Assembly (NCBI RefSeq): GCF_004151485.1
Contig: NZ_SBFF01000016.1
Coordinates: 1 to 63,364, forward strand
Direction of reading: 5' to 3'
Source: Sphingosinicella sp. CPCC 101087
Lineage (GTDB): Bacteria > Pseudomonadota > Alphaproteobacteria > Sphingomonadales > Sphingomonadaceae
Length of the DNA stretch: 63,364 nucleotides
The position numbers were made by a program, and so were the translations under genes. Numbering within the stretch: the stretch's first letter is position 1; each line of letters begins with the position of its first letter. The notes below the pieces were generated by a model, which ran no database searches, was not told where the DNA came from, and saw nothing but the letters and a program-made list of their open reading frames with translations. Positions 3,619 to 29,783 of the stretch are shown piece after piece.

Positions 3619-3652
3619 ATCGCAAGTCGCTTTATATAAACCGCCTAGCGAA
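3619..3652. promoter_or_regulatory. Operator A, copy 1 (MarR-type, between the divergent acyl-CoA dehydrogenase and SDR genes)
   Basis: Symmetric site ATCGCAAG-N4-TTTATATAAA-N4-CTAGCGAA, centred at 3635.5. The same architecture with the same central decamer occurs at 29750-29783 directly upstream of the MarR gene. It sits between the divergent starts at 3549 and 3757, so it could control both. The sequence match is observed; the binding protein is inferred. Confidence 0.6.
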
Positions 3653-3756
3653 ACATAGTTGTCATTAGCACCGATTCGCGCAACAATGGATCCGCAGCCT
3701 TCACCTTCAAGCCCAGCATAGGGCAACCGGTACGAGGGCTCGGGAGAGGCGCTGTC

Positions 3757-4485
3757 GTGAACTACATCGCTGACAAGGTTGTCGTGGTGACTGGCGCAAG
3801 CTCGGGCATCGGTGCGGCCGTGGCCGTCGAGTTCGCGGCGGCGGGGGCAAAGCTCGTGCTCGGCGCGCGGCGCAAGGACAGGCTCGACAGCCTCGCCGCG
3901 GAGATCGAGACCAAGGGCGCCGCCGTCGCCACTGTGGCCTGCGACGTCCGACGAGAGGCCGACGTTCTTTCCCTGTTCGCCGCCGGCCTGGATCGCTTCG
4001 GGCGCATCGACATTCTGATCAACAATGCGGGGGTGGCCGATCACACGCCGACCGCAGATCTTTCGCTGGAGCGCTGGTCGGAGGTGCTCGACACGAACCT
4101 TACCGGCGCCTTTCTCTGCGCGCGTGAGGCCTTCCGCATCATGAAGGCCCAAGGGGCGGGGCGGATCATTCATATCGGCAGCCTTTCGGCGCAGGTGCCG
4201 CGGCCCGACACGATCGCTTATGCGGCAAGCAAGTTCGGGCTTGCCGGCCTCAACCATTCGCTGGCGATCGATGGCCGAGCACACGGCATCGCATCGTCGA
4301 TCTTTCATCCGGGCGTGGTCGGGACGGAGCTCGTCCGGTCGAGCGGCGCGCGTGATCCAAGCACGGTGATCGGCTCCGACGTCGCGGCCCGCGCAGTGCT
4401 GGCGATGGCGGATTTGCCGGATCATGTGAATGTCGTCGAGAGCACGATCCTGCCGCTGACCATGCCCTTTCTCGGGCGAGGTTAG
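3757..4485 (+). CDS. Short-chain dehydrogenase/reductase (SDR)
   Basis: A 242-residue classical SDR. It has the TGASSGIG dinucleotide-binding loop near residue 12, NNAG near residue 90, a catalytic Ser in HIGSLSAQ and YAASK as the catalytic pair. Such proteins are cytosolic NAD(P)H-dependent oxidoreductases of alcohols or ketones. Start is GTG 3757 behind GGGAGAGG. The gene is divergent from the fused acyl-CoA dehydrogenase and shares operator A with it, and the TonB-dependent receptor follows 108 nt downstream. The substrate is not determinable; in this setting a benzylic or side-chain alcohol/ketone of an aromatic compound is plausible. Confidence 0.93.
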   Translation: MNYIADKVVVVTGASSGIGAAVAVEFAAAGAKLVLGARRKDRLDSLAAEIETKGAAVATVACDVRREADVLSLFAAGLDRFGRIDILINNAGVADHTPTADLSLERWSEVLDTNLTGAFLCAREAFRIMKAQGAGRIIHIGSLSAQVPRPDTIAYAASKFGLAGLNHSLAIDGRAHGIASSIFHPGVVGTELVRSSGARDPSTVIGSDVAARAVLAMADLPDHVNVVESTILPLTMPFLGRG

Positions 4486-4593
4486 AAGCTGGGTCATACA
4501 ATAATATGGTCGTACGTCCGTCTCCAAGTTCATCGTACGGCAGTCATAAATGACCTGGGCTCGATGAGCTCCAGGCGTCACGGGGAGAGGAAA

Positions 4594-7521
4594 ATGAACC
4601 GTCGCTCTTGGTTGCTTGGATCGGTCGCCGTCGGCGCGACCTTGTCCCTGACAGTGCCCGCTTCCGCGCAGGACACCACCAACCCCGAGCCAGCTACGCC
4701 ATCTCCGGCCGAAGGGGAGGCGCCAGTTGGCAACGAGACGATCGTCATCACCGGATCGCGCGTCGCCCGCGACGGTTTCCAGGCGCCGACGCCGACCACG
4801 GTCCTCACTTCCGAGGCGCTCGACAATCGCGGCCTCGCCAATGTCGGTGACTTCCTCAACGAGATTCCGTCGTTTCGCCCCAGCGTGTCGAACCAGACGA
4901 ATACGCAGTCGTCGAACCTGTCCGGCGGTACCTTCGCGGACCTTCGCGGTCTGGGCAATATCAGGACGCTCGTGCTGGTGGATGGCCGCCGGCACGTCCC
5001 GACTGCGGCCACCGGTCAGGTCGACCTCAACCTTATTCCCACGATCCTGATCGACCGGGTCGACGTCGTCACGGGCGGCGCGTCGGCCGCATACGGCTCA
5101 GACGCGGTTTCGGGCGTCGTCAACGTCATCATCAACAATCGGCTACAGGGCTTTCGAGGCGATCTTTCGCTGGGTATTGCGGAGGAAGGCGACAATTTCG
5201 AGCGTCGTGTGAGCCTGGCCTGGGGTACCGACTTCGCGGACGGCCGCGGCCACTTCGTGATAGGGGGCGACTACGTCCGCTCCGAGGGCGTGGACAGCTG
5301 GGAGGATCGCGACTGGAGTCGCCGCTATGAGGAGGTGGTCACTTTCTCGAACAATCGTCCGGCGGGAACGCCGTCGCGCGCCTATTTTGGTGGCGTCCGG
5401 TTCATCAACTCGCTGCCCGGCGGCCTGATCGTCGGCAACAACGCCGACACCAATCCTGCAAACGGCGCCGATGTGCTGCGCGGCATCTGGTTTCCGAGCC
5501 CCGGCGTGGTCGCGAACTTCGATTATGGCGAGGAATCCGGCGGGTCCTCTTACAATTTCTCGAGCTCGGCGGGAACGCCGCCGCGGCTTGGGCACACCCT
5601 GGTCCTCCCGGTGGACCGCCATGTCGCAATGGCGCATCTCGACTATGAGATCAGCGACGCCGTCACTTTCTTCGCGGAGGGAACATACGGCCGCTCGGGT
5701 TCCAACTATTCGGGGCCGATCCCGCGCGACACGGCGACGGCGGGTCCCCGCGCGATCACCATCCGCCGCGACAATGCGTTCCTCCCGGCGGAAGTCGCCG
5801 ACATCATGGATGCGAACGGAATCACCTCGTTTGCGATGGGGCGCGCAAACGCGGACTATTCGTCCGTGCGCATCGTCAACTTCAATACGACCTACCGCAT
5901 CGCGGGCGGTCTGAGTGGGGATCTCGGCGGCGGCTGGGGCTGGGACGGTTATGTCCAATATGGCGAGAACCGGACGGACTGGCAGATCCGCAACATGCGC
6001 ATCCAGCGGAACTGGGGCTTCGCTTACGACGCGATCCGATTGCCGAACGGGCAGATCGTCTGTCGCAGCGAAGCCGCCCGCGCCGAGGGCTGCGTTCCGC
6101 TCAACCTATTCGGCAACGGCGCAATGTCGCCGGAAGCGATCGACTATGTGAACGGAACCCAGTTCCATGAGGTGACGCTCACCCAACTGGTAGCCGCTGC
6201 CAATATCCGCGGCGAGCCTTTCTCGACCTGGGCCGGCCCGGTCTCGGTCGCGGCGGGCGTCGAGTATCGGCGCGACACGGCGGAGGCCATCTCCGATTCG
6301 ATTGCCGAGGCCGGCGGGTACAATTTTTCCAATCCCCGACCGTTTGAAGGCGCGTTCGACACCAAGGACGCCTATGTCGAAGCGGTGGTGCCTCTGGCCC
6401 GGGAGGTGCCCTTCCTGCACTCGCTCGAGCTCAATGGCGCGATCCGTTACACCGATTACAGTTCGTCGGGGGGCGTGACGACGTGGAAGATCGGCGGTTC
6501 CTGGGAACCCATCCCGGACCTGCGCTTCCGTGCCGTACGCTCTCGAGACATTCGCGCGCCGAACAGCTCGGAGCTGTTCTCCGAGAGCTCGACCCAATCG
6601 ACCCTGCGCAATCCGTTCAGCGGCGCTTCGCGCTCGTACACGGTCATATTTGAGCCCAGCTCGACCCTGGCTCCCGAACGGGCCGACACGCTATCGATCG
6701 GCGCGGTCCTCGCACCCCGATTTCTGCCGGGCTTCACGGCTTCGGTCGACTTCTATGACATCGACATCAGCGGTGCGATCGCGAGCTTCCCCGCGCAGCA
6801 GATCCTCGACAATTGCTTCGCCGAATTTCAGGCGGGCGGCCCTGGGTCGTTCTGCGACTTCGTCAGCCTGACGGGCTCCGGCACGGCCACGGAAATCAAT
6901 TCCGTCAGCGTGCAGTTGCTGAACCTTGCCTCGCTGCGCACCCGCGGCGTCGATTTCGAGGCGGCGTATCGCTTCAATGCCGGCCCCGGCCAGGTCGTCT
7001 CCCGTCTCTACGGAACCTATGTGGCCGATCTCATTTCCGACGACGGGCTGGGCATTGAGCCCACCTATGACTCGGCGGGCGTCATCCAGACCCGCGGCAG
7101 CGTGATCGACCGCGCAGGCCAGGTCGGCGGATTCACCTCCGGCCTCAATCTCGGCGCGACCAGCGTGCCGACCTGGCAGCTGAACGGCAGCGTCAGCTAC
7201 GAGACTTCGCGTTGGTCGACGACCCTGATGGCGCGCTGGATCGACGGCGGCATCGTCGATGCGACGCTCGTCCAGCCCGGCGATCCGGACTACGATCCGG
7301 CGTCCCCCATTTCGGTCCTCGACATGAACGTGAATTCCCGATTCTATCTGAACTGGTCGGGCACGATCAACGTCATCGACGAGGGACAGCGCCGCCTTCA
7401 ATTCTATTTCGTGGTGAACAATCTGCTCGATGCGGAGCCGCCGTTCCCCAACACGCAGGTCGCCGGCTTTTACGATAGGATCGGGCGCAGCTACAAAGTC
7501 GGCTTGCGCTTCGGGTTCTGA
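4594..7521 (+). CDS. TonB-dependent outer-membrane receptor
   Basis: A 975-residue outer-membrane transporter. A signal peptide (MNRRSWLLGSVAVGATLSLT..., cleavage likely after ASA near residue 24) is followed by the TonB-box/plug region typical of sphingomonads, with ETIVITGSR near residue 47. The plug domain extends to about residue 170, then a long beta-barrel follows ending in the classic aromatic C-terminus (YKVGLRFGF). ATG 4594 is chosen because GGGGAGAGG lies just upstream and the signal peptide starts there; an in-frame ATG at 4564 lacks both. Family members import bulky ligands using TonB energy. Its position between the SDR and the acyl-CoA synthetase operon suggests uptake of the aromatic substrate of the locus (inference). 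Confidence 0.95.
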   Translation: MNRRSWLLGSVAVGATLSLTVPASAQDTTNPEPATPSPAEGEAPVGNETIVITGSRVARDGFQAPTPTTVLTSEALDNRGLANVGDFLNEIPSFRPSVSNQTNTQSSNLSGGTFADLRGLGNIRTLVLVDGRRHVPTAATGQVDLNLIPTILIDRVDVVTGGASAAYGSDAVSGVVNVIINNRLQGFRGDLSLGIAEEGDNFERRVSLAWGTDFADGRGHFVIGGDYVRSEGVDSWEDRDWSRRYEEVVTFSNNRPAGTPSRAYFGGVRFINSLPGGLIVGNNADTNPANGADVLRGIWFPSPGVVANFDYGEESGGSSYNFSSSAGTPPRLGHTLVLPVDRHVAMAHLDYEISDAVTFFAEGTYGRSGSNYSGPIPRDTATAGPRAITIRRDNAFLPAEVADIMDANGITSFAMGRANADYSSVRIVNFNTTYRIAGGLSGDLGGGWGWDGYVQYGENRTDWQIRNMRIQRNWGFAYDAIRLPNGQIVCRSEAARAEGCVPLNLFGNGAMSPEAIDYVNGTQFHEVTLTQLVAAANIRGEPFSTWAGPVSVAAGVEYRRDTAEAISDSIAEAGGYNFSNPRPFEGAFDTKDAYVEAVVPLAREVPFLHSLELNGAIRYTDYSSSGGVTTWKIGGSWEPIPDLRFRAVRSRDIRAPNSSELFSESSTQSTLRNPFSGASRSYTVIFEPSSTLAPERADTLSIGAVLAPRFLPGFTASVDFYDIDISGAIASFPAQQILDNCFAEFQAGGPGSFCDFVSLTGSGTATEINSVSVQLLNLASLRTRGVDFEAAYRFNAGPGQVVSRLYGTYVADLISDDGLGIEPTYDSAGVIQTRGSVIDRAGQVGGFTSGLNLGATSVPTWQLNGSVSYETSRWSTTLMARWIDGGIVDATLVQPGDPDYDPASPISVLDMNVNSRFYLNWSGTINVIDEGQRRLQFYFVVNNLLDAEPPFPNTQVAGFYDRIGRSYKVGLRFGF

Positions 7522-7618
7522 CCTTCACGGCATCGGCGGTGCTGCGCCGTTGGTGCTTGCACCTTCTGTGGCCCGGCCATGTTCCGGGGTCGCGGTCCAT
7601 TGAGAACGGAATGTGCGA

Positions 7619-9763
7619 ATGACGGGTTCTGAAACGGGTAGGGGTGCTCCTGCGCTCAGCGGAGCCGAAGCGGTCGAGATTTTCATGCGCCCGCGCTCGA
7701 TCGCCGTGGTGGGAGTGTCCTCCAAGCCAGGGACCGCCGGCCGCACCGTCCTCGCGAACCTCGGACTCAACAGCTACGCTGGCGGCGTTCATATCGTGGG
7801 CCGCGCCGAAGGCGAGATAGACGGACGCCCCGTCAAGCAGAGTATCGACGATCTGCCGGAGGGCGTGGACCTCGCGGTGTTCACGCTGCCGGCCGCGGGC
7901 GTCAAGGAGGCGCTTCAGGCCTGCGCACGGCGCGGCGTACGCGCCGTGACGGTCTTTTCGTCAGGCTTTGCGGAAGTCGGCAACCATGCGGCGCAGAACG
8001 AGCTGGTCGCGATCGCAAACGACGCAGGGATCGCCCTGCTCGGGCCAAATTGTCTCGGCTACACGAATCTCGTCGACGGGTTGCCCATCGGCTTCGCCAA
8101 CGCCCGCAAGGTCGCGCTCGTGCCGAAGGACGGAAGGAATCCGGCCGTAGCGATGGTGTCGCAGAGCGGCGGGCTGATGGCCTATGCGAGCCTGACGCTG
8201 GCGGCTCGTGCCCTGCCCGTTTCCTATACGGTAGCCACCGGGAACGAGGCCGGCGTCGGCATGGCCGACTTCATCGACTTCTTCGCCGAAGACGCGGCAA
8301 CCAGGGTGATCGCCCTCTATCTCGAGGAGGTTCGCGACCCGAAAGGCTTTCTCGCTGCGGCAGCGCGTGCGCGTTCGGCCGGAAAGTCGTTGGTCGCCAT
8401 TCATCCGGGCCGGGGTGAGAAGGGCAAGGCCGCGGTCCAGTCGCATACGGGCGCCTTGGCCGGAGACTATGCGGCAATGCGCGTTCACCTCGAACGTGCC
8501 GGCGTCGTGCTGGTCGACACTCTCGAAGAATGGGTCGACGTCGTCGAGCTGCTCGCGCGCTATCCCGAGGCGCCGACCCAAGGGCCCGGCGTGCTCACTT
8601 TCTCAGGCGGCTTCTGCGCAATCGCGCACGACTTCTTCGAGGATCTCGGGCTCGAACTACCGCCGCTGACGGATGAGTCGGCGGCCGAGCTCGCGCCCCA
8701 GCTTCCACCCTACATACCTCCCAGGAACCCCCTCGACCTCGGTACGCAGGCCATTTGGCAGCCTGAGCTGACCGGTATCGGCACCTCGGCGCTTATCAAG
8801 GACGAAGGCGTCGGCAGCGTGCTCATCGCGATCAACAGCGGTACGGCGAAGTCGCAGGCCGTCTATGCCCCGCACTTCATCGCAGCGCTGAAGGGGCAGA
8901 AGAAGCCGGCGATACTGGGCTTCCCGGCGCCGGAGATGAACGAGGCGTTCGAGGCCTCCGTGCGGGAGAACGGCCTCATCCTCAGCCGCTCGCTCGAGCG
9001 GTCGATGCGGGCGCTGGCGCGCGTGACGCATCATGGCCGCAACCTGGAGCGTGCGGCGCGCTCGGTGTCGCATGCGTCGTTCGGCGATCTCCCGGAACTC
9101 GGCGTCGGGGCACAGCCGGAATGGCTCGGCAAGCAGCTTCTCGAAGCTATCGGCGTGCCGATCCCCCGAGGCGGCCTCGCGAAGAACCTCGCCGCAGCGC
9201 AGGAGATCGCCGGGCGAGTCGGCTATCCGGTCGCGGTGAAAGCACAGGCCGGCGCGCTCGCCCACAAGACGGAAGCGGGCGGCGTGCTGCTCGGCATCGG
9301 TGATGCGGACGCGCTCGCTGCCGCCTGGGGGACCCTTCATGACAATATTGCCAGGGCTGAGCCCGACCTCGTGCTCGACGGTGTGCTGGTCGAGCGAATG
9401 GCGCCCAGGGGACTTGAGCTGATGGTGGGGGCTAAGCGTGACGCCAGGTGGGGTCCGGTCGTATTGGTCGGGCTTGGGGGCGTCTGGGTCGAGGCATTGG
9501 GTGACGTGCGTCTGCTACCCGCCGACATGGCAGAGGCGGATATTGTCGAAGAGCTGGGTAGGCTGCGCAGCGCCAAGCTGCTCGGTGGGTTCCGCGGTTC
9601 CCCACCTCGGGACGTGGCGGCGGTCGCGCGCATCGCAAGCTTGGTAGGACGGCTCATGATGACCATTCCCCGGATCGTCGAAATCGACCTGAATCCGGTA
9701 TTCGTCCACGGTGAAGGGGAAGGGCTGACCGCCGTCGATGCGCTCGTGGTGACCGCGTCATGA
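7619..9763 (+). CDS. NDP-forming acyl-CoA synthetase (fused alpha/beta type)
   Basis: A 714-residue single-chain acyl-CoA synthetase of the NDP-forming (succinyl-CoA-synthetase-like) superfamily. The CoA-binding domain (RPRSIAVVGVSSKPG near residue 25) is followed by the succinyl-CoA-ligase-like domain with the phospho-histidine segment SHTGALAGDY near 280 and a C-terminal ATP-grasp domain (GYPVAVKAQAGALAHKTEAGG near 540, EIDLNPVFVH near 695). It would make an acyl-CoA from a carboxylic acid, ATP and CoA. As I recall, some sphingomonad hydroxycinnamoyl-CoA synthetases (FerA type) belong to this superfamily, so an aryl-propanoid acid is a fair candidate substrate. ATG 7619 is preferred; a GTG 6 nt upstream is possible. 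The stop overlaps the next start (ATGA), marking an operon with crotonase, thiolase-like and DUF35 genes. Confidence 0.9.
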   Translation: MTGSETGRGAPALSGAEAVEIFMRPRSIAVVGVSSKPGTAGRTVLANLGLNSYAGGVHIVGRAEGEIDGRPVKQSIDDLPEGVDLAVFTLPAAGVKEALQACARRGVRAVTVFSSGFAEVGNHAAQNELVAIANDAGIALLGPNCLGYTNLVDGLPIGFANARKVALVPKDGRNPAVAMVSQSGGLMAYASLTLAARALPVSYTVATGNEAGVGMADFIDFFAEDAATRVIALYLEEVRDPKGFLAAAARARSAGKSLVAIHPGRGEKGKAAVQSHTGALAGDYAAMRVHLERAGVVLVDTLEEWVDVVELLARYPEAPTQGPGVLTFSGGFCAIAHDFFEDLGLELPPLTDESAAELAPQLPPYIPPRNPLDLGTQAIWQPELTGIGTSALIKDEGVGSVLIAINSGTAKSQAVYAPHFIAALKGQKKPAILGFPAPEMNEAFEASVRENGLILSRSLERSMRALARVTHHGRNLERAARSVSHASFGDLPELGVGAQPEWLGKQLLEAIGVPIPRGGLAKNLAAAQEIAGRVGYPVAVKAQAGALAHKTEAGGVLLGIGDADALAAAWGTLHDNIARAEPDLVLDGVLVERMAPRGLELMVGAKRDARWGPVVLVGLGGVWVEALGDVRLLPADMAEADIVEELGRLRSAKLLGGFRGSPPRDVAAVARIASLVGRLMMTIPRIVEIDLNPVFVHGEGEGLTAVDALVVTAS

Positions 9764-10560
9764 GCGAGCCGCTGGCGACCTACGAACTGGACGGAGAGAC
9801 CGCGCTCGTCGGAATCAACCGCGCAGCCAAGCGCAACGCGGTGAGTAGCGCGGTCATGGCCGAGCTGCATGCGGCCTTCGAGCGGGCCGCTCAGGAAGCG
9901 CGGGTGGGCATCCTTTTCGGGCACGGCGACAATTTCTCGGCCGGACTGGACCTCGCCGAGGCCGCCTCGCGTATGGGCAAGCCGATCAAGCCTTGGGAGC
10001 GGGGTCGCTGGACGGTGCCGCTGGACCTCGTCGCGCGCGGACCGATACCGTGGGTGGCGGCGCTGAGGGGCGCCTGCATCGGCGGAGGCCTGGAGATCGC
10101 CTCGGCCTGCCAGATCCGTGTAGCGGACGAGACCACCTTCTTTGCGCTTCCCGAGGGCAAACGCGGCATCTTCGTCGGCGGCGGCGGCGCGGTACGCATC
10201 CAGCGGTTGGTCGGCTATGCGCGCATGGCCGACATGATGCTGACCGGGCGAGTGCTGAGCGCCGCGGAGGGAGAACGGGCGAATCTCTGCCAATATGTCG
10301 TGCCTGCGGGGCAGGCGCTGGCGAAGGCGAAGGAACTGGCGCTGCTCGTCGCGAGCAATCCGCCCAACACCAATTGGGCGATCTGCGCCGGCCTGCCCCG
10401 GCTCAACGACATGGGCCACGCAGACGGTCTCTTCTTCGAAGGGCTGGTCAGCGGCGGCGCGCGCAACGAGGAGGGCGCCAAGCGGATCGCCGCCTTCCTC
10501 GATCGCGGCGAGAACAAGGTCGCCGCCCCGCCTCGCGAACCGGACGACGAGGAAGGCTGA
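9760..10560 (+). CDS. Enoyl-CoA hydratase/isomerase family protein (crotonase)
   Basis: A 266-residue crotonase-fold protein. Visible marks are NRAAKRNAVSS near residue 20, the oxyanion-hole segments NFSAGLDLAE near 60 and RGACIGGGLEIA near 103, and the following ALPEGKRGIFVGGGG. Crotonases hydrate, isomerise or cleave acyl-CoA thioesters. The usual second catalytic Glu region reads LPEGKRGIF, so an active-site acid is present. Its ATG overlaps the stop of the acyl-CoA synthetase gene and the next gene begins 3 nt after its stop. It probably hydrates the enoyl-CoA made by the acyl-CoA dehydrogenase so that the downstream thiolase-like/DUF35 pair can act on the beta-hydroxyacyl-CoA (inference). 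Confidence 0.92.
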   Translation: MSEPLATYELDGETALVGINRAAKRNAVSSAVMAELHAAFERAAQEARVGILFGHGDNFSAGLDLAEAASRMGKPIKPWERGRWTVPLDLVARGPIPWVAALRGACIGGGLEIASACQIRVADETTFFALPEGKRGIFVGGGGAVRIQRLVGYARMADMMLTGRVLSAAEGERANLCQYVVPAGQALAKAKELALLVASNPPNTNWAICAGLPRLNDMGHADGLFFEGLVSGGARNEEGAKRIAAFLDRGENKVAAPPREPDDEEG

Positions 10561-13301: not shown

Positions 13302-14158
13302 CCGGAGATGCGCTCGAAGCCATCGCGCGCACGCTCGGGCTCCCCGTGCCCTTTCCCTCGGTCGAACATTATCGGCGAGTCGCCGCTGCGATCGCCGGGC
13401 GGGCGGGGAACGGACCCCTGCTCGCAGGCATTAGCGGGCCGCAGGGGAGCGGCAAATCGACCATGGCCGCCTTCGTTGCGGCCTTGCTGGAAAAGTCAGG
13501 TCTGCCCACCGCCGTGCTCTCGCTCGACGATCTCTATCTCGATCGCGAGGACCGGCCGACGGCCCTTCATCCGCTCTTCGCCACGCGCGGAGTGCCGGGA
13601 ACCCACGACGTGGCGCTGGGACTCGATGTAATCGACCGGCTCTTTGCCGGGGGCGGGAACATCCCGCGCTTCGACAAGGCACGGGACCGGCGGCGGCCGC
13701 CAGCGGAGTGGGACAATTTCCCACGGTCGGCCGGGGTCGTTCTGCTCGAGGGATGGTGTGTCGGCGCGGGTCCTGAGGACGAGACGGCCTTGGCGGCGCC
13801 GATCAACCGGCTCGAGGCGGAGGAGGACCCGGCGGGCATCTGGCGGCGCCAGGTCAATGCTTTCGTCGCCGGCCCTTATCGCACCCTGTTCGACCGGATC
13901 GGCTTCCTCGTCTATCTGCGTGCGCCGTCCTTCGATTGCGTCCTGCGGTGGCGGACTCTGCAGGAGCGCAAGCTTCGCGCCCTCGAAGGGAAGAGGGCGG
14001 GCATGGATGATTCGGAGCTCGCTCGCTTCGTCAGCCACTACGAGCGGCTGACCCGCCACCTTGCGGCGACGTTGCCGGCACGGGCGGACCTCCTGGTTCA
14101 TCTGGACGAGGCCCAGGCGATCGCTGGACTGGTTGTTCGAGACAACTATGTGGATTGA
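13298..14158 (+). CDS. P-loop kinase, D-glycerate 3-kinase-like
   Basis: About 286 residues. The Walker A motif GISGPQGSGKST lies near residue 43, followed by LSLDDLYLDREDR near 71, a region resembling plant/cyanobacterial D-glycerate 3-kinases (GLYK) and related uridine-kinase-fold proteins. The later segments PRFDKARDRRRP and VVLLEGWCVG also fit this group. The likely start is TTG 13298, overlapping the TGA of the dehydrogenase gene (TTGA); the frame is open further upstream, but only inside that gene. Predicted role: phosphorylation of D-glycerate to 3-phosphoglycerate, draining the product of the upstream reductase into central metabolism. Phosphoribulokinase-like alternatives fit less well. 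Confidence 0.82.
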   Translation: MTGDALEAIARTLGLPVPFPSVEHYRRVAAAIAGRAGNGPLLAGISGPQGSGKSTMAAFVAALLEKSGLPTAVLSLDDLYLDREDRPTALHPLFATRGVPGTHDVALGLDVIDRLFAGGGNIPRFDKARDRRRPPAEWDNFPRSAGVVLLEGWCVGAGPEDETALAAPINRLEAEEDPAGIWRRQVNAFVAGPYRTLFDRIGFLVYLRAPSFDCVLRWRTLQERKLRALEGKRAGMDDSELARFVSHYERLTRHLAATLPARADLLVHLDEAQAIAGLVVRDNYVD

Positions 14159-14599: not shown

Positions 14600-15931
14600 G
14601 TGGCGACGACCGAGCTTCCGACGACCCCCGCTTCGCCCTCCGGTCCCGCTCCGATCGCGCTGAAGAGGGGCCTTGCTTATCCCGGATGGTGGGTGGTGGC
14701 GGCGGGCTTCGTCATCTTCTTCTTCTCCTTCGGCGGCCCGACCCTTTCCATGTCGCTCCTCTACAACGAAGTGATTGCGGAATTCGGCTGGACGCGAACG
14801 CAGGCAACCGGGATCTATGCATGGAAGGGGATCACCGGCGCGGTCGTCGCCATCCTGCTGATCGGGCCGGCCGTGCAGCGCTTCGGGTTGAAACCGGTCT
14901 TTCTGACCGTCCTGACCTTGCAGGCGCTCGGCTTCTTCACGTTTCTGAACGTCAATTCGATCCCGACCTACTTCCTCGCGGGATTCCTGATCGGCCTCGG
15001 GCAGGGGGCCGTTCTGCTCTGCATCAAATTGCTCGTCGCGCGCTGGTTCATCCGCAATGTCGGCTTTGCCGGCGCGATGGCCCTGGTGGGATCGAGCGCC
15101 GGCGGCGTGGTCTTTCCTATCGTCATCGCGTCGCTGCTGCCGGACCTCGGCTGGCGCACGACCTACGCGCTGATCGGCGTCTCCATCCTCGCCATCTCGG
15201 TGCCCCTCGTCCTTTTCACGAAGCTGAATCCGACCGAGGAGGACTTGCTCCCCGAAACGGTGGGAGCCAAGGGCCCTCCGCCGAGCCCGGAGCTGGTCGA
15301 GGCCACGCGCGCGGCGGACATACCGGCTACCTACGGCGAGCTGATCCGCAAGCCGATGTTCTGGGCGATCATGGTCGGCATCTTCGTCATTGCCGGCGTG
15401 GACCAGGGGCTGTTCCAAAACATGCAGCTCTATTTCGTCCAGGAGGTGGGCCTCAGCCGCGGCACCGCCGCTTGGCTGCTCTCGTTGACCGCCCTCATCG
15501 GCCTGCTCGCCAAGTTCATCGCGGGCAAGTTCTTCGACGTCTATTCGGTGAAGGGAATCGCCATCTGGTACCTGCTGATCGCCGCAATGGTCTTAATCGC
15601 CTTCACGGTGAGCAATCTTTGGACCGCCATAATCTTCGCGTGCGTGCTGGGCCTCGCCCATGGCGGACTCGTGTGCGAGGGCCCGGTTCTGGCCAAACAT
15701 GTCTTCGGGCCGAGAAACATGGACAAGGTCCTGCCGATCGTCACCGGCTGCTTTGCCCTGGGATCGTCGGCGGGGCCGATATCCCTGGCCTTCATCTACG
15801 ACCAGATCGGCCATTACGATCTGGGATTCGCCTTGTTCTCGGTCCTGGCGCTCCTCGCCGCCTTCCTCCTCACGTGGTTCGTGCGCCCCCTGTACCGCGA
15901 CCGCCTGCGCGTTGCGATCGGCGGCGCCTGA
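14600..15931 (+). CDS. MFS transporter
   Basis: A 443-residue inner-membrane protein with about twelve hydrophobic segments. The first is WWVVAAGFVIFFFSFGG near residue 30. A central loop lies near residues 205-245 and the second half starts at FWAIMVGIFVIAGVDQG. The topology and the GWTRTQATGIYAWKG segment resemble MFS carboxylate transporters. Start is GTG 14600 preceded by GAGAGGAAC. The gene is upstream of the ring-cleavage operon and has a counterpart at 31093-32400 in the second half of the locus. It probably imports an aromatic acid across the inner membrane after TonB-dependent uptake (inference). Confidence 0.93.
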   Translation: MATTELPTTPASPSGPAPIALKRGLAYPGWWVVAAGFVIFFFSFGGPTLSMSLLYNEVIAEFGWTRTQATGIYAWKGITGAVVAILLIGPAVQRFGLKPVFLTVLTLQALGFFTFLNVNSIPTYFLAGFLIGLGQGAVLLCIKLLVARWFIRNVGFAGAMALVGSSAGGVVFPIVIASLLPDLGWRTTYALIGVSILAISVPLVLFTKLNPTEEDLLPETVGAKGPPPSPELVEATRAADIPATYGELIRKPMFWAIMVGIFVIAGVDQGLFQNMQLYFVQEVGLSRGTAAWLLSLTALIGLLAKFIAGKFFDVYSVKGIAIWYLLIAAMVLIAFTVSNLWTAIIFACVLGLAHGGLVCEGPVLAKHVFGPRNMDKVLPIVTGCFALGSSAGPISLAFIYDQIGHYDLGFALFSVLALLAAFLLTWFVRPLYRDRLRVAIGGA

Positions 15932-21433: not shown

Positions 21434-22708
21434 CTAGGCGTCTACATAGCCCTTGGAATCCTGCGCGATCCCCATCGCCTGCTCCTGGAGGAGGCGCACC
21501 GCCTCGGGCTGGCCGTACTGAAAGATGAAGCGCTTGAGGTGCAGGGCGCCGCCCGCCTTGATCTCCTCGGCGGTCATCCCTTCGGTCACTGCTTCGCGGT
21601 CGATCGTGGGCAACGGCACCCTCTCGTTGATTGTCGGATCGCGGATCACGCCCTTGGGATCCTCGCCGTTCCTGACCTTTTCGATGTCGCGCAGGAATTG
21701 GCGGCGCATCATGCCTACGCCCTTATCCGACAGGCCGAGATGCTCCTGCGTGCGGTCGGAGATCCTCCCCTGGCCGATCCAGGCGACGAAATCCTGGTTC
21801 ATCACGTGACTCGTGATCCACTCGCCCTTCTCGTCCTTGATCGGCCCGTACCAGACAGGGATCGAGTTCTGCTCGTAGGGTTCCTGGTCCTTCGGCACCC
21901 GCGTGAAGAACCAGGCGATGCTCAGCATGTTCTCGTCGTCGACCGGCACGCGATATTCGAAATGGTCTCCGGTGAACATGGCGTTGGGCCAGAGGCAGGC
22001 GCGTCCGATCGTCCACAGCGGGTGGTTCTCGTCGGTGTCCTCGCGGATGCGATTGTAGGTGAAGCCATATTCATATTCGCGGAAGTCGATCTTGAGGTGC
22101 TTGGGCCCGTAAGGGCCGAGCTCGCCGCGCAGCCGCTTGCTCCAATTGGCGTGCATCCATTCGAAGTGGATCGGGTCGATCGAATTCTCCTGTCCCTGAA
22201 GCCAGTTGCAGGGCAGTTCGGAGATCACGATCTGGCGGAATCCGTTGTTCCAGGAGAAAGGCTCCCAATCCGGCAGCTCGGGCGCCGGCGCCGGACCCAT
22301 ATAGGCCCAGAGCAGCCCGCCCTTGCTTCGGACCGGGTAGGACTTGATCGTGATCCGGTCCTTGTACCGGCCCGACGGGTTGGCGGTTTCCTCATAGGGC
22401 TGGTCGAGGCACTTGCCGTCGCGGCCGAACAGCCAGCCGTGATAGGAACATCTGAGGCCGCATTCCTCGACCATTCCATAGGCCATGTCGGCGCGGCGGT
22501 GCGGACAGTGGCGGTCCACCAACCCATAATTGCCGGACAGATCCTTGTAGAGGACCAGGTCCTCGCCGAGGATGCGGACGGCCTTGGTCGTGCGCTTCTC
22601 GAACTCGCTTTCGCCACCGATCGGGTGCCAGTAGCGGCGCAGCAATTCTCCCATGGGGGTGCCTGGGCCGACCCGGGTCAACAGCTGGTTCTGTTCCTCG
22701 GACAGCAT
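21434..22708 (-). CDS. Rieske non-heme iron oxygenase, alpha subunit (LigX/phthalate-dioxygenase-like)
   Basis: A 424-residue oxygenase. The Rieske [2Fe-2S] ligands are C68-x-H70 (CPHRR) and C87-xx-H90 (CSYHGW). The mononuclear iron site is NWLQGQENSIDPIHFEWMH, with the D-x2-H-x4-H pattern. The opening MLSEEQNQLLTRVGPGTPMG is typical of the aromatic O-demethylase/phthalate 4,5-dioxygenase branch. Such enzymes hydroxylate rings or remove aryl methyl groups with electrons from a separate ferredoxin and reductase, neither of which is in the window. ATG 22708 follows GGGAGAGGAAGAG; the frame extends to 22789, but that would run through the operator. The gene is divergent from a MarR gene whose probable operator lies between them. 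Confidence 0.94.
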   Translation of the reverse strand: MLSEEQNQLLTRVGPGTPMGELLRRYWHPIGGESEFEKRTTKAVRILGEDLVLYKDLSGNYGLVDRHCPHRRADMAYGMVEECGLRCSYHGWLFGRDGKCLDQPYEETANPSGRYKDRITIKSYPVRSKGGLLWAYMGPAPAPELPDWEPFSWNNGFRQIVISELPCNWLQGQENSIDPIHFEWMHANWSKRLRGELGPYGPKHLKIDFREYEYGFTYNRIREDTDENHPLWTIGRACLWPNAMFTGDHFEYRVPVDDENMLSIAWFFTRVPKDQEPYEQNSIPVWYGPIKDEKGEWITSHVMNQDFVAWIGQGRISDRTQEHLGLSDKGVGMMRRQFLRDIEKVRNGEDPKGVIRDPTINERVPLPTIDREAVTEGMTAEEIKAGGALHLKRFIFQYGQPEAVRLLQEQAMGIAQDSKGYVDA

Positions 22709-22763
22709 CTCTTCCTCTCCCGCGGAGCCGCAGCCACGCCCGGCTCCACTTTGTTCTCCGTAG

Positions 22764-22792
22764 GACAATTTCATTGTCTCAAACAACAATAT
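22764..22792. promoter_or_regulatory. Operator C, copy 1, between the Rieske and MarR genes
   Basis: Perfect inverted repeat GACAAT-TTC-ATTGTC (22764-22778) followed by a further half-site in ACAACAATAT (22783-22792). The last ten bases recur at 23560-23569 upstream of the aldehyde dehydrogenase. The location between divergent genes, next to a MarR gene, fits an autoregulatory operator. Binding is inferred. Confidence 0.5.
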
Positions 22793-22894: not shown

Positions 22895-23518
22895 GTGGCG
22901 ACGAGGAAAGGCGAGCAGGCGACGAAGCCGCCGAGCTTCCGCAATCTGATGACCTTCCGCCTCCACCGCGTGGCGCGCATCTCGGAACGGATATCCGAGC
23001 AATATTATCGAAAGCACCTCGACCTCTCCCTGCCCGAATGCCGAGTCATCGGAATCACGGCGGGCTTCGGATCGGTCTCGTTCAAGCGGGTCGCCGCCGC
23101 CGCCAATCTGGAAAAGAGCTATGCCAGCCGCGTGGTATCCTCGCTGGTCGAGCGCGGCATCATGGAGAAGAGCCCGAACCCACAGGATAGCCGCTCGGTG
23201 CTGCTGCAGCTCACCGACCATGGGAAGGGGGTGCACGAGCAGACCTATGCCCTCGCGCTGAGTCTGAACGAGCTGCTTCAGGCCCCCTTCCGGCGCGGGC
23301 AGGTGGCAGATTTCGTGGCCTTCCTGAACACGCTCGAGCAACAGCTCGAACGGACGAGCGGAATGATCGAGGCTGGCGGCGATCTGGGCCAGGCGCCCGC
23401 ACTTATGGCTCCGGTAGCAGAATCACTGTCCGCCGAACCGGGCCAGTCCTTCATGCTGGATCGCGCCTTTGCGCAGCAGCTCCACGACATGCTGGGCCAG
23501 TATCTGGCCAAGGATTGA
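22895..23518 (+). CDS. MarR-family transcriptional regulator 1
   Basis: A 207-residue winged-helix regulator. The core runs from LMTFRLHRVARISERISEQY (helix 1) through VSFKRVAAAANLEKSYASRVVSSLVERG (helix-turn-helix, near residues 60-90) to the wing PNPQDSRSVLLQLTDHG near 95-112. The last 60 residues are an extra tail beyond the usual 140-150-residue MarR length. Start is GTG 22895. It is divergent from the Rieske gene and just upstream of the aldehyde dehydrogenase gene. Related half-sites (ACAACAATAT) flank it on both sides, so it probably controls both neighbours and itself in response to an aromatic ligand. Confidence 0.92.
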   Translation: MATRKGEQATKPPSFRNLMTFRLHRVARISERISEQYYRKHLDLSLPECRVIGITAGFGSVSFKRVAAAANLEKSYASRVVSSLVERGIMEKSPNPQDSRSVLLQLTDHGKGVHEQTYALALSLNELLQAPFRRGQVADFVAFLNTLEQQLERTSGMIEAGGDLGQAPALMAPVAESLSAEPGQSFMLDRAFAQQLHDMLGQYLAKD

Positions 23519-23569: not shown

Positions 23570-23605
23570 TCATGATCCCGCGAAAGCAGCTCGCGGGAGA
23601 TGGAA

Positions 23606-25057: not shown

Positions 25058-25181
25058 TGGCGCGCGGGCATCTTGCTCACCACCGTCGCCACGTGCCGAG
25101 CCTCCCGATGACCGGGACCGATCGAGATGTCCAGCGCGGCAGTGACGGGGAGCGATGGCGGCCGAAGCACTCGGCGTTTGA

Positions 25182-26900
25182 CTAGGCGTGGCGGGCGACC
25201 TTCACTTCGATAAGCGCTTGCCTTCTTTCCTCCCGGATCACGCGCGCCGCCTCGGCGAGCGTCGCGGCCAGGTCCTCCGCGCGCTCCACCCGCGCGGCCC
25301 ACGCGCGCGAGGCCTCGGCGATCTTGCAGAAGTCGGGAAGGGGATCGAGCGAGGTGATCGGCATGACATTCGCCCGGGCCGCGTGACCTTGCGGATAGAT
25401 GCCGAGCGTCGAGCCGCGAACAGCGCCCCAGATGCCGTTATTGTAAACCACCGTGAGCAGGGGCAGGCGATGCGCCTCCGCCACCTGATGGCAGGCGACC
25501 GGGTTGGAGAACATGTAGCTGCCGTCGCCCACCGTGGCGATCACCAGTCGGTCGCGATCGGCGAGCTGCACGCCGAGAGCCGTCGGCAAGCCCCATCCGA
25601 GCCCGCCTGAAATCGGATTCTGAAAGAATTGATGGCCTTTCAGCGTCGGCACGAACTCGGCCTTGGCGCCGAGCTCGGTAACGATGCAGCCATGATCGCC
25701 GACCAGCTCGGCGAGCGCGCGGGTCACGAACGCCGCCGACATCGGCGGGCCCGCCTGCGCGGCTTTGGCCTCGAGCGCGGCGCGAATGAGCGCGTTGCGT
25801 TCGGCGACGGCTCTGAAACGCCCGCTGCGATCCCTGACCGGCATGGCCGCGTCGAGCGCGGCGACGATGTCGGCGGATTCGCCGGTCAGTGCGAGATCGA
25901 CAGCGAAGCCGCGAATGGGGGTCTCTACCTGGTGCGGGTCGGGTCCGGCCTGGATCACCGTGGCATTGTCGGCGAAGCCGTGCCGGTGCGGCAGCCATGG
26001 GACGATCGAGTCGAGCACCAGCACCACGTCCGCCTTGGCGAGATCCTCGCTATGATCGTAGCCGGCATGCATCGGAGAAGTGCCCGCGATGGAGAGCTGG
26101 GACGGCCAGAACTCGACCACCGGAATGGCGTGCTTTTCGGCGAAGGCCGTGAGCCGGTCGAAGCCGCCGTCCCGCGCGCCGAGGCGGAATGCGACGATCA
26201 GCGGACTTTTCGCGGCGTCGAGTAGCCGCGCCGCTTCAGCGACCGCATCCGGATGAGGCGCGGCCCGGGCGGGGGCGTTGCGCGGCGGTGTCTCGCGATA
26301 GGTGGCGACGCCGCACAAGGTCTCGCGCGGCAGCCCCAGATAGACGGGGCCGCGGGGACTGGAGGTGGCGATCGCGACGCCCCGGTCCACGAGGGCAGCC
26401 ATCTGGGCCGGATGCGAAAGCGTCGCGTCCCACTTCACCGGCTCACGCACCATTGCCGCCTGGTCTCGCATATTCTGGCCCCAGTTGATCGGCGAGTTGC
26501 GGTGGCCGAGCGGGCCATGTTCCGTGGCCGGAGTGAGGCCGCTGGCGAGGATGATCGGCACCTGGTCCGAGGCGGCGTTGATCAGCCCCATCACGCAATT
26601 GGCGAGGCCGACATTGGTGTGGACCATCACCGCCTGGGGCCGTCCGGTCGCGAGGTAGTAGCCGTGCGCCATGCCCATCGCCGCGGTCTCGTGCGGCACG
26701 ACCACTGGTCGCGGCACCTTGAAGTCCGCAACCTGAGCATGAGCAAAGCCCTCGATTATGGGGGCGAAATCGGTGCCGCCATTGGCGAAGAGATAGTCCA
26801 CGCCGTTTGCGGCTAGGCGGCGCAGGAAAATCTCCCCGGCCGTGGCTTCGATTTCCGGAAGTGCTTGTTCTTTGGGAGCTGACGCGGCGGCAGGGTTCAT
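25182..26900 (-). CDS. Thiamine-diphosphate-dependent 2-oxoacid decarboxylase/synthase-like enzyme
   Basis: A complete 572-residue ThDP enzyme. The catalytic Glu is in VVPHETAAMGMAHG near residue 70. The central domain spans about 215-345. The ThDP/Mg site GDGSYMFSNP...YNN lies near 450-482. ATG 26900 follows GGGAGAGAGAGATC; upstream in-frame residues would sit in the divergent promoter. Family members include acetolactate synthase, benzoylformate decarboxylase and oxalyl-CoA decarboxylase. With an FMN 2-hydroxyacid dehydrogenase and an aldehyde dehydrogenase nearby, decarboxylation of an aryl-glyoxylate to the aldehyde is attractive (inference). It is divergent from the MetE-like gene. Confidence 0.9.
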   Translation of the reverse strand: MNPAAASAPKEQALPEIEATAGEIFLRRLAANGVDYLFANGGTDFAPIIEGFAHAQVADFKVPRPVVVPHETAAMGMAHGYYLATGRPQAVMVHTNVGLANCVMGLINAASDQVPIILASGLTPATEHGPLGHRNSPINWGQNMRDQAAMVREPVKWDATLSHPAQMAALVDRGVAIATSSPRGPVYLGLPRETLCGVATYRETPPRNAPARAAPHPDAVAEAARLLDAAKSPLIVAFRLGARDGGFDRLTAFAEKHAIPVVEFWPSQLSIAGTSPMHAGYDHSEDLAKADVVLVLDSIVPWLPHRHGFADNATVIQAGPDPHQVETPIRGFAVDLALTGESADIVAALDAAMPVRDRSGRFRAVAERNALIRAALEAKAAQAGPPMSAAFVTRALAELVGDHGCIVTELGAKAEFVPTLKGHQFFQNPISGGLGWGLPTALGVQLADRDRLVIATVGDGSYMFSNPVACHQVAEAHRLPLLTVVYNNGIWGAVRGSTLGIYPQGHAARANVMPITSLDPLPDFCKIAEASRAWAARVERAEDLAATLAEAARVIREERRQALIEVKVARHA

Positions 26901-27061
26901 GATCTCTCTCTCCCGGATTGCTCTTCGGTCGGTTTTGTTGCCTTGGGTAACGAAACTCACCAACTGAGCAAGGCGATTTCTGGCGCTCGGCCGCGCTTTC
27001 CGCTTGAAAATAGTTTCTTCCGGCTACAAAAATCACCGTCGAACCAGATTGGAGAGATGCT

Positions 27062-28174
27062 TTGAAGCCTGCGCCGTTCCGCGCCGACCATGTCGGCAGC
27101 CTGATACGTCCGGACTACCTGATTTCGGCGCGCGAGCGTCGCGCGGCCGGCGAGATCAGCGACAACGAGCTGAAGGAAGTGCAGGAGCGGGCGATCCGCG
27201 AGGTCGTGGCGCTGCAGGAAGGGATCGGCCTCAAGTCAGTCACCGACGGCGAATATAATCGCGGGAGCTGGCATACGGACTTCCTGCTCCGCTTCGCCAA
27301 CGTCGAGCCCTGGCAGTCCAACTACAAGACCACGTTTCACAACGAGGAAGGCTCGGTCGAAAGCAAGCCGCATACGGTGCGCGTCACCGGCAAGCTCAGC
27401 CGTCCCCAGCCGATCTTCGTCGAGGATTTCCGGTTCCTGAAATCCGTGACCCGCGAGACGCCGAAGATCACCATCCCGTCGCCCTCGATCATGCATTTTC
27501 GAGGCGGACGCGAAGCGATCGACACGACGGCCTATCCGACCATGGACGAATTTTACGCGGATCTGGCTGCCGTCTATGCCGAGGAGATCGGCGACCTGGC
27601 CGATGCCGGCTGCCGCTACCTGCAGATCGACGAAACCAACTTCGCCTATCTTTGCGATCCCTCGCTTCGCGCCCAGGTACAGACCAGCATCGGCGAGGAT
27701 CCCGACGAGCTGCCGCACGTCTACGCGAAGCTGATCAACAACGCGATCGCCGGACGGCCCGACGACATGGCCGTCTGTATGCACGTCTGCCGAGGAAATT
27801 TCGCGGGCCGTTGGATCGCCGAGGGCGGCTATGAGCCGGTCGCCGAGGTGATGTTCAACGAGCTCGAGATCGACGGCTATTTTCTCGAGTACGACTCAGC
27901 TCGCGCTGGCGGATTCGAGCCACTGCGCTTCCTGCCCAAGGGGAAGAAGGTCGTGCTCGGCCTCGTGACCACGAAGTGCGGCCAGATGGAGAGCGCCGAC
28001 GAGCTGAAGCGCCGGATCGACGAAGCCGCGAAGTTCGTCGATCTCGACCAGCTCGCTTTGTCACCCCAGTGCGGCTTCTCCAGCGGCATCGGCGGCAACA
28101 CGATGGGCATCGAGGACGAGAAGTCCAAGCTCAGCCTCGTGCTCGAGGTGGCCAGGGACGTCTGGGGCGACTAG
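27062..28174 (+). CDS. MetE C-terminal-domain-like zinc protein (methionine synthase II / epoxyalkane:CoM transferase family)
   Basis: 370 residues covering only the C-terminal catalytic half of cobalamin-independent methionine synthase. The opening FRADHVGSLIRPDYL and the zinc ligands His and Cys in CMHVCRGNF (near residue 240) plus a Cys in LSPQCGFSSG (near 340) are present. The family includes YxjG/YxjH methyltransferases and epoxyalkane:coenzyme M transferase; all activate a thiol on zinc. The start is TTG 27062, with GGAGAG six bases upstream. Inside an aromatic catabolic locus it may move a methyl from an aryl methyl ether or conjugate a thiol to an electrophilic intermediate, rather than make methionine. 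The FMN dehydrogenase gene follows after 10 nt. Confidence 0.88.
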   Translation: MKPAPFRADHVGSLIRPDYLISARERRAAGEISDNELKEVQERAIREVVALQEGIGLKSVTDGEYNRGSWHTDFLLRFANVEPWQSNYKTTFHNEEGSVESKPHTVRVTGKLSRPQPIFVEDFRFLKSVTRETPKITIPSPSIMHFRGGREAIDTTAYPTMDEFYADLAAVYAEEIGDLADAGCRYLQIDETNFAYLCDPSLRAQVQTSIGEDPDELPHVYAKLINNAIAGRPDDMAVCMHVCRGNFAGRWIAEGGYEPVAEVMFNELEIDGYFLEYDSARAGGFEPLRFLPKGKKVVLGLVTTKCGQMESADELKRRIDEAAKFVDLDQLALSPQCGFSSGIGGNTMGIEDEKSKLSLVLEVARDVWGD

Positions 28175-28184
28175 GTCTCCGCGC

Positions 28185-29369
28185 GTGCGGCAGGCCGGAG
28201 GGGCGCTCGTCACGGGCAGGTTCGGCTGCCACAATGTCGAGGATCTCCACGAAGCGGCGCGGCGCCGCCTGCCGCGCGGCCTCTTCGACTTTCTCGACCG
28301 CGGCACCGAGGACGAGCTCAGCGTCGCGCGCAATCGCCAGGCGTTTCGTGCGGTCGGGCTGTTGCCGCGCGTGCTACGCGATGTCTCCAAGGTGGATCCG
28401 TCAACCAGGCTGCTCGGGATTCCGGCCGCGTTCCCGCTCGCCATTGCGCCCACGGGTGGGGCGGGCCTCGCCTGGCACGAGGGCGACCTTCACCTTGCCC
28501 GTGCCGCGGCCGCGGCCGGCGTCCCCTTCACCATTTCGAGCGCGAGCACGATGGACGTGGAGGCCATCTGCGCGGCCGGAGGCCGGCTCTGGTTCCAGCT
28601 CTACCTTTGGGAGGACCGCTCGCTCTCCATGGCCGTGGTCGATCGTGCGCGCGCCGCGGGCTGCGAAGCGCTGATCGTCACCGTCGACATGCCGGTGCCG
28701 CCCAATCGCGAGTATAACCGGCGCAGCGGCTTCGCCTCGCCCTTTCGTCTGCGGCCCAGCAATGTCGTCGATATACTCTCCCACCCGCAATGGTTCGCCG
28801 GAGTCATGCTCCGCTACATGCGCGAGGGAGGGATGCCGACGCAGGCGAACCTGCCGGCGGAGTTTCGCCACAAGGTCACGAGGCAGGCGGCGAGGCCCGC
28901 CCGCTTCAAGGGTGATGCGCTTACTTGGGATGACGTGGCGAGAATTCGCGACAAGTGGTCCGGCTCGTTCCTTCTCAAGGGTATTCTCCGCCCCGACGAC
29001 GCGGGGCGCGCCGTCGCCTTGGGTGCGGACGGCGTGATCGTTTCCAACCATGGCGGGCGCAGTCTGGACTGCGCGGTGGCGACGCTCGACGCCCTGCCGG
29101 GGGTGGTCGCCGCGATCGGGGCACAGGCGGAAGTCTTCGTCGACAGCGGGATCCGGCGCGGCAGCGACATAGCCAAGGCCATCGTTCTGGGCGCGACCGG
29201 GGTGCTCGTCGGGCGTGCTCCGCTCTACGGCTTGGCGATCGGTGGCCAGGCCGGTGCCGAACATGCGATCGATCTCCTGAAGAGCGAATTCGTTCGAGTC
29301 ATGGGCCTGTGCGGCGCTGCCCACGTCTCGGAGTTGAATGCCGGCCTGCTTGCCCCGATGCCGTCCTGA
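28185..29369 (+). CDS. FMN-dependent alpha-hydroxyacid dehydrogenase (mandelate/lactate dehydrogenase family)
   Basis: About 394 residues. The FMN barrel opens with VEDLHEAARRRLPRGLFDFLD near residue 18. The segment LAIAPTGGAG lies near 86, and the catalytic His/Arg signature SNHGGRSLD near 285 is the textbook motif of glycolate oxidase, lactate dehydrogenase and (S)-mandelate dehydrogenase; DSGIRRGSDIAKA follows near 325. It oxidises an L-2-hydroxy acid to the 2-oxo acid. The start is uncertain: GTG 28185 is the only good early codon, though a strong GGAGGGGC lies just inside. It is probably co-transcribed with the MetE-like gene. Together with the ThDP enzyme and aldehyde dehydrogenase it would complete a mandelate-type sequence (inference). 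Confidence 0.9.
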   Translation: MRQAGGALVTGRFGCHNVEDLHEAARRRLPRGLFDFLDRGTEDELSVARNRQAFRAVGLLPRVLRDVSKVDPSTRLLGIPAAFPLAIAPTGGAGLAWHEGDLHLARAAAAAGVPFTISSASTMDVEAICAAGGRLWFQLYLWEDRSLSMAVVDRARAAGCEALIVTVDMPVPPNREYNRRSGFASPFRLRPSNVVDILSHPQWFAGVMLRYMREGGMPTQANLPAEFRHKVTRQAARPARFKGDALTWDDVARIRDKWSGSFLLKGILRPDDAGRAVALGADGVIVSNHGGRSLDCAVATLDALPGVVAAIGAQAEVFVDSGIRRGSDIAKAIVLGATGVLVGRAPLYGLAIGGQAGAEHAIDLLKSEFVRVMGLCGAAHVSELNAGLLAPMPS

Positions 29370-29749
29370 GGATCTCTGCTCCGGGCCATCATGACATCGG
29401 GCGGGCGATCGGGGCGATCGCAACTCATCGCCGGGCTCAACTGACATTCGTTGCAGCACTGGGTGCAGGTTGAGCCGTTGGAACCGGAGGCGTTGACACG
29501 TCCAACCTGGCCGATGACGATCTTCAGGCTCGGGTAGATCCCGACGCTCCGGGAAGCTGCGCGTACCGCATTGGTTCTCGTCAAGCCGTCGATCGACACC
29601 CGCCTCGCCCCAAGACCATCCTGACCGGACTCACGTTGAGGCTGTCGTCGTCGGCCCGACGATGGGCGGTCAGCGCTCCGACTATCGGCGCGGGGTCGGC
29701 GGGCGACTCTTCCCCTCCCGGCCGACGCGATTGACATCGACCTCGATCG
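29370..29749. other. 380-nt intergenic stretch without a recognisable gene
   Basis: Between the FMN dehydrogenase stop and operator A copy 2. Open frames here have no ribosome-binding site and no family resemblance. A TTGACA hexamer at 29731-29736 could be a -35 element for the MarR gene, but no well-spaced -10 follows. Confidence 0.5.
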
Positions 29750-29783
29750 ATCACAAGGTAATTTATATAAAGCTACTTGTGAT
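29750..29783. promoter_or_regulatory. Operator A, copy 2, immediately upstream of the MarR-hydratase/lyase operon
   Basis: ATCACAAG-N4-TTTATATAAA-N4-CTTGTGAT. The outer 8-bp arms are perfectly complementary and the central decamer is itself palindromic about the same centre (29766.5). The site ends 7 nt before the MarR start codon, so bound protein would block the operon. Copy 1 lies at 3619-3652. Confidence 0.75.

Follow-up and report, generated by a model that had tools for sequence, protein, structure and literature searches.

MarR-type regulators of hydroxycinnamate genes are known from several bacteria. In Sphingobium sp. SYK-6, FerC regulates ferBA, i.e., a hydroxycinnamoyl-coenzyme A (CoA) hydratase/lyase gene of a sphingomonad, and its DNA binding is inhibited by hydroxycinnamoyl-CoA esters (PMC5487221). 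CouR, described for Rhodococcus jostii RHA1 (PMC4737184) and Rhodopseudomonas palustris (PMC5487221), represses hydroxycinnamate genes at several promoters sharing an inverted repeat, responds to p-coumaroyl-CoA as the signal, and is released by hydroxycinnamoyl-CoA esters (PMC5487221, PMC4737184). HcaR of Acinetobacter ADP1 (PDB 3k0l and others) also regulates hydroxycinnamate genes, its structures binding free aromatic acids (PMC5487221), and DdvR, a MarR-type repressor encoded in the dehydrodivanillate (DDVA) cluster of SYK-6, represses ddvT and ligXa (PMC6874591). Here, we describe a 34-bp element occurring twice in a stretch of 63,364 nt from Sphingosinicella sp. CPCC 101087 (contig NZ_SBFF01000016.1; referred to as the window in the following), once in front of the gene of a MarR-type protein, termed MarR-B, and its neighbor encoding a p-hydroxycinnamoyl-CoA hydratase/lyase (HCHL), and once in front of an acyl-CoA dehydrogenase (ACAD) gene. 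The element is probably the operator of MarR-B, a putative CoA-thioester-released repressor which would control its own MarR-HCHL operon and the ACAD operon, so that side-chain steps would be switched jointly.

Two Copies of a 34-bp Element in the Genome

Both copies (operators 1 and 2 in Table 1) were found, letter for letter, at the positions and with the shared consensus that an earlier note on this DNA had reported. The arms of operator 2 are perfect (ATCACAAG/CTTGTGAT), and the right arm of operator 1 is imperfect (CTAGCGAA). The flanks of the two sites, judged by eye, are unlike each other, which argues against a duplicated segment and for the same short site at two promoters. As also proposed in the note, operator 2 (end at 29783) is separated by 7 nt from the ATG of MarR-B (29791), the open reading frame (ORF) of which overlaps that of HCHL (30263–30285).

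Searching the window for the consensus of the note with at most three mismatches yielded four matches, representing the two places on both strands, and no match was obtained when the window was shuffled 100 times. Within the whole genome (4,702,612 bases in 44 contigs), the pattern CAAG-N4-TTTATATAAA-N4-CTTG with at most three mismatches occurred only at the places of operators 1 and 2, the reversed control giving none. A low probability of chance likeness, as assumed in the note, is in line with these counts, and a motif scattered over the genome, which it had named as a contrary outcome, was looked for and not seen.

Looser patterns with three mismatches reached chance-level numbers in four genomes and in six genomes; from the six-genome scan, only matches with no or one mismatch were used, and these are located at MarR-B or ACAD promoters. 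A pattern of the 34-bp type with at most two mismatches was present in 6 out of 298 genomes of the family (G000, G115, and G144, which carry MarR-B, as well as G133, G040, and G155) versus nine for the reversed control, as counted from the list. Since the reversed control is as frequent across the family, a bare match elsewhere means little, and it is the position beside the right genes that counts.

Conservation of the Element at MarR and ACAD Promoters

Homologs of MarR-B are rare. They were detected in 4 out of 397 family genomes (E ≤ 1e-18; three genera), in 1 of 385 genomes of a class-wide draw, namely that of the window itself, and as five relatives among 97 pattern matches when named genomes were scanned: Sphingomonas canadensis, a marine alphaproteobacterial metagenome-assembled genome (MAG), SYK-6, Aurantiacibacter xanthus, and Altericroceibacterium endophyticum. 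No relative was found in a scan of viral contigs. HCHL follows MarR in all five named relatives and in a further genome, G391. The MarR-HCHL pair forms a separate unit in the window, S. canadensis, the MAG, SYK-6, and G391, and the order ACAD-ACAD-MarR-HCHL-synthetase on one strand was observed in A. xanthus and A. endophyticum, the synthetase being a weaker homolog of the ATP-grasp enzyme of the window.

In the five genomes with a separate MarR-HCHL unit, the site is present at both the MarR and the ACAD promoters. A. xanthus and A. endophyticum possess one good site, which precedes ACAD; in these two species, none is present within the 73 and 85 bases ahead of MarR (scores of 1.0 and 6.5), and no other place with no or one mismatch was listed for their genomes. 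The site tracks the predicted transcription units of MarR, HCHL, and ACAD.

Evaluation of the ACAD intergenic region was based on a matrix trained on the MarR-promoter sites of the window, S. canadensis, the MAG, and SYK-6; no ACAD site was used, and G391 was left out because its site is identical to that of SYK-6. This region was matched in all seven genomes, with best scores of 28.2 (window), 36.3 (SYK-6), 36.3 (G391), 17.2 (S. canadensis), 41.5 (MAG), 44.0 (A. endophyticum), and 32.5 (A. xanthus), the background maximum being 12.3 over 122,852 positions (window plus 60 kb of SYK-6, known sites excluded). In the alignments, the site appears as an island within diverged flanking DNA. The comparison of both intergenic regions in relatives, suggested in the note, thus revealed that the MarR-lyase/ACAD pairing recurs, and two rare shared sites, their conservation, and their co-location with these genes are established at the sequence level.

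The distance from the site to the ACAD start, taken in the relatives as the edge of the tblastn match, amounts to 32–69 nt in all seven genomes versus 105–358 nt to the gene on the side of the short-chain dehydrogenase (SDR) or TonB-dependent receptor. Moreover, the gene opposite ACAD encodes the TonB receptor and not the SDR in SYK-6, G391, the MAG, A. xanthus, and A. endophyticum. The narrow range of distances on one side, the variable distance on the other, and a gap of about 110 bp to the TonB promoter block in two genomes suggest that operator 1 primarily serves ACAD. Of the link drawn earlier between the MarR-lyase operon and a common ACAD/SDR promoter, the ACAD part is accordingly retained, and the SDR part is weakened.

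Architecture of the Sites and Promoter Context

The earlier description of a tripartite element was revised, since a reading of each 34-bp site as a pair of 17-bp inverted repeats of the type TATMAAG-N3-CTTKATA, having two bases in common and centers 15 bp apart, fits better. Without any mismatch, the left box occurs ahead of MarR in S. canadensis, the MAG, and SYK-6, and the right box ahead of ACAD in A. endophyticum. Since the boxes seem to decay independently of each other, two dimer sites are favored over one long palindrome.

In all five aligned MarR-B promoters, TTGACA, possibly representing the −35 element, occurs 17–18 nt ahead of the CAAG of the site (spacing determined by eye), so that the site would span the stretch immediately following the −35 element, as expected for a repressor. 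On the other side of the cluster, a conserved block, GTTGTCATTAGCA...GCGCAACAAT (3658–3687), adjoins operator 1; it is promoter-like and includes a weak match to the repeat presumed for DdvR. The promoter-like sequence TTGTCA-17-AACAAT of this block is conserved next to the site in five genomes and lies apart from it in the two genomes with the gap mentioned above.

MarR-B Compared with Described Regulators

MarR-B belongs to the MarR family according to Pfam (MarR_2, 41.8 bits, cut-off 27; MarR, 28.9 bits, cut-off 24.6). Its predicted structure is a normal winged helix-turn-helix (mean predicted local distance difference test value 83.6; predicted template modeling score 0.71) matching the fold of MarR structures. 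In an alignment with five orthologs, which are 43–54% identical to MarR-B, residues T73-P74-Q75-A76 and T78-Q79-Q80, located in or beside helix 74–86 in the recognition-helix region, are invariant in all six sequences. As in repressors of the FerC/CouR type, the gene adjoins, and here overlaps, that of the hydratase/lyase. The conserved palindromic site in the promoter of MarR-B is its putative operator.

In contrast to what would be expected for FerC itself, MarR-B is only 24% identical, over 111 residues, to the MarR protein beside SYK-6 ferB, presumably FerC. SYK-6 carries both this protein and a separate MarR-B counterpart (48% identity), and orthology of MarR-B and FerC was ruled out on these grounds. 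No box within three mismatches was present in 14 kb around SYK-6 ferB or in 13–14 kb around each of the two other HCHL genes in the genome of the window. The likeness to CouR concerns the type of circuit, whereas the RHA1 box is a single repeat, ATTGA-5 bp-TCAAT (PMC4737184), instead of two overlapping boxes; a PDB entry named CouR (6c28) was a distant profile match to MarR-B (E 8.6e-7). HcaR ranked fourth in the PDB profile search (E 2e-11), but is only about 25% identical to MarR-B in the fold comparison. DdvR resembles MarR-B in type and in the gene cluster in which it is encoded; however, its presumed counterpart in the window (22895–23518) is a separate gene beside a different repeat, and the protein is 16% identical to MarR-B. 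MarR-B as the DdvR ortholog was ruled out, the place beside and divergent from ligXa being taken by that protein.

Proposed Regulation and Competing Explanations

We infer binding, repression, ligand, and substrate of the MarR-B system as follows. Each 17-bp inverted repeat would have the size of one MarR dimer site. MarR-B would bind the predicted operator ahead of its own gene and repress the MarR-HCHL operon, and would also bind before the ACAD gene 26 kb away. A CoA thioester of the pathway would then displace the repressor, by analogy to FerC and CouR (PMC5487221, PMC4737184), so that dehydrogenation and the subsequent hydration and cleavage steps would be switched on together. The shared operator at the MarR-lyase and ACAD promoters would accordingly place side-chain dehydrogenation and cleavage in one regulon. 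The pair of sites is regarded as real and conserved, most likely belonging to a MarR regulator that the DDVA cluster encodes in addition to DdvR.

Several observations weigh against this interpretation. One 17-bp box alone, with at most two mismatches, occurs at 7 places in the genome, five of them outside the window, versus 10 for the control, i.e., at chance level, and no further regulon members are claimed. A similar repeat, GTCAAG-ATA-CTTGATATAAAG, precedes the ORF of a different MarR-family protein in G155 (L007:1440-1590), indicating that the box is not unique to MarR-B. At ACAD, the right box of the window is poor (four mismatches), and in S. canadensis the left box alone is kept (two and seven mismatches, respectively). 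A promoter scan of the MarR-B upstream region found no promoter there and no clear −10 element matching TTGACA, leaving repression through promoter overlap putative. Finally, the known control of ddvT by DdvR (PMC6874591) means that another regulator is active at the same region.

Among the alternatives, it is unlikely, but deserves the most weight, that MarR-B reads both sites in a different manner, namely as an activator, with a free acid or a different ligand as its signal, or with operator 1 mainly serving the SDR/TonB side. Operator 1 ends 6 nt before the promoter-like sequence towards the SDR, a place where activators can sit, and a free acid as ligand would correspond to the HcaR structures (PMC5487221); the steady distance to ACAD and the separation of site and TonB promoter block in two genomes contradict the SDR/TonB side as the main target.

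Rather improbable is the view that the element represents the operator of the DdvR counterpart, with the MarR-B operon likewise being subject to this protein. It draws on the repression of ddvT by DdvR in SYK-6 (PMC6874591), where the site is located between ACAD and ddvT. However, the ligXa/ddvR region, a known target of DdvR, was devoid of such a site in all five genomes scored (window, S. canadensis, SYK-6, A. xanthus, and A. endophyticum), with best scores between −12.5 and 3.7. Instead, this region features a repeat of its own, TTGTC-N3-GACAA, exact in three and with one mismatch in two of the five genomes. When the ACAD/TonB region was scored with a matrix for the latter repeat, the top match fell into one and the same aligned block, beside operator 1, in all seven genomes; these matches are weak in five genomes (10.1–12.9; 6–19 background places equal or better) and better in two (17.4; three places), measured against a background which included the training sites and the ACAD/TonB matches themselves. 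Operator 1 and a possible DdvR box side by side would fit the published effect of DdvR on ddvT together with a second regulator, although this arrangement is suggestive only. A further match to the presumed DdvR repeat, GTTGTTCGAGACAAC (14132–14146; score 17.0, second-best in the window), was noticed upstream of a major facilitator superfamily gene at 14600, inside a doubtful ORF lacking a Pfam match.

Chance likeness, or a promoter or other A+T-rich element without a common regulator, is highly improbable, since the A+T-rich palindromic center and the chance-level counts for single boxes and bare family matches are opposed by the absence of matches in the shuffled and reversed controls and by the retention of the site at matching promoters of relatives while the flanking DNA diverges.

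The Gene Cluster and Its Presumed Function

Gene order and sequence of the window match SYK-6 at 0.79–0.84 Mb, with identities of 62–91% for most matched enzymes and 48% for MarR-B; for the SDR, the flavin mononucleotide dehydrogenase adjoining MarR-B, and some others, no counterpart was listed in this comparison. Residues 67–84 of the SYK-6 TonB receptor, counted by eye, are the DdvT antigen peptide printed in PMC6874591. Both results identify the window as the counterpart of the DDVA cluster. Names such as LigXa, LigZ, LigY, LigW, and DdvR were inferred here from gene order and the locus tags in PMC12997858 and not from a name match. All four family genomes with MarR-B fall among the 15 out of 397 that encode a close homolog of the LigY-like amidohydrolase.

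Table 1. Positions of the sites, promoter-like sequences, and genes discussed for the window.
Feature	Position	Strand	Remarks
ACAD, pimC-like and pimD-like acyl-CoA dehydrogenase halves, 775-aa ORF	1222..3549	-	Below NCBIfam equivalog cut-offs; proposed main target of operator 1
Operator 1 (putative), between ACAD (-) and SDR (+)	3619..3652		Left box 3620-3636 (2 mismatches), right box 3635-3651 (4 mismatches) to TATMAAG-N3-CTTKATA
Promoter-like TTGTCA-17-AACAAT towards SDR/TonB receptor	3659..3687	+	Begins 6 nt after operator 1; first part overlaps weak candidate DdvR box 3658-3672
SDR, doubtful target	3757..4485	+	
TonB-dependent receptor, counterpart of SYK-6 DdvT	4564..7521	+	72% identity
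ATP-grasp acyl-CoA synthetase	7613..9763	+	
Rieske oxygenase with LigXa C-terminal domain, presumed LigXa counterpart	21434..22789	-	Name from gene order
Second MarR-type protein, presumed DdvR counterpart	22895..23518	+	Divergent from LigXa-like gene; name from gene order
TTGACA, possible -35 of MarR-B	29731..29736	+	TTGACA in 5/5 aligned MarR-B promoters
Operator 2 (putative), before MarR-B	29750..29783		Left box 29751-29767 (3 mismatches), right box 29766-29782 (2 mismatches) to TATMAAG-N3-CTTKATA
MarR-B, 164 aa, proposed repressor	29791..30285	+	Pfam MarR_2 1.3e-10; predicted winged-helix model
HCHL	30263..31096	+	NF006588, 435.8 bits vs. cut-off 276

Besides the SDR, TonB receptor, and ATP-grasp synthetase, the genes to the right of operator 1 encode an enoyl-CoA hydratase, a thiolase, and an OB-fold protein. 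The region between the two sites also includes genes for a LigB-type dioxygenase, two RraA-like proteins, an amidohydrolase, the Rieske oxygenase, the second MarR protein, an aldehyde dehydrogenase, and others. Given the location of the regulon inside the DDVA-cluster counterpart, its likely substrates are propanoid side chains, perhaps of 5-5-linked lignin dimers, a proposal derived from the gene neighborhood.

A more extended, tentative model, which is possible but held with less than even confidence, assumes two tiers of control in the DDVA cluster: DdvR would gate uptake and ring steps via the acid, and a second, apparently undescribed MarR repressor would gate the CoA-dependent side-chain steps (the ACAD pair, HCHL, and perhaps the divergent ligW in four genomes) by means of a double operator, i.e., two overlapping dimer boxes on different helix faces. 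The cluster would then serve as an entry route for 5-5-linked dimers keeping their propanoid side chains. Among the titles and abstracts searched, no description of the MarR-B regulator was found; a paper in Green Chem (2025), which deals with an unusual repressor acting in dimer catabolism, may concern either DdvR or MarR-B. Should the proposed MarR-B regulation be correct, a side-chain regulon within a well-studied lignin-dimer cluster would have its regulator, operator, and core members named; the regulon would also exist in the model strain SYK-6 and be directly testable there, and a sensor part for aryl-propanoid CoA thioesters would become available. The regulon would be new, but of an ordinary kind, leaving the general knowledge of MarR regulation unchanged.

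Some further features of the locus were recorded. ACAD is encoded by a single ORF in the window, but by two tblastn stretches separated by approximately 11–44 bases in SYK-6, G391, S. canadensis, the MAG, A. xanthus, and A. endophyticum, the single ORF representing either a gene fusion or an assembly slip. Assignment of the ACAD halves as counterparts of PhcC and PhcD was dropped, since the latter, judging from a reference title, are glucose-methanol-choline oxidoreductases. A gene for a thiamine-pyrophosphate enzyme (1–1394, minus strand) overlaps the ACAD stop and is cut by the contig end; a homolog also follows ACAD in S. canadensis. In the window, no close LigW homolog was found (best 24%), including position 29370–29750, whereas a LigW-like gene (83–100% identity to that of SYK-6) is divergent from MarR-B across the operator in SYK-6, G391, the MAG, and S. 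canadensis. Finally, near the start of the MarR-B counterpart, a run of G residues differs in length by one base between SYK-6 and G391 (L035:9968-10020 and L020:148-200), placing the ATG used in G391 out of frame in the SYK-6 record.

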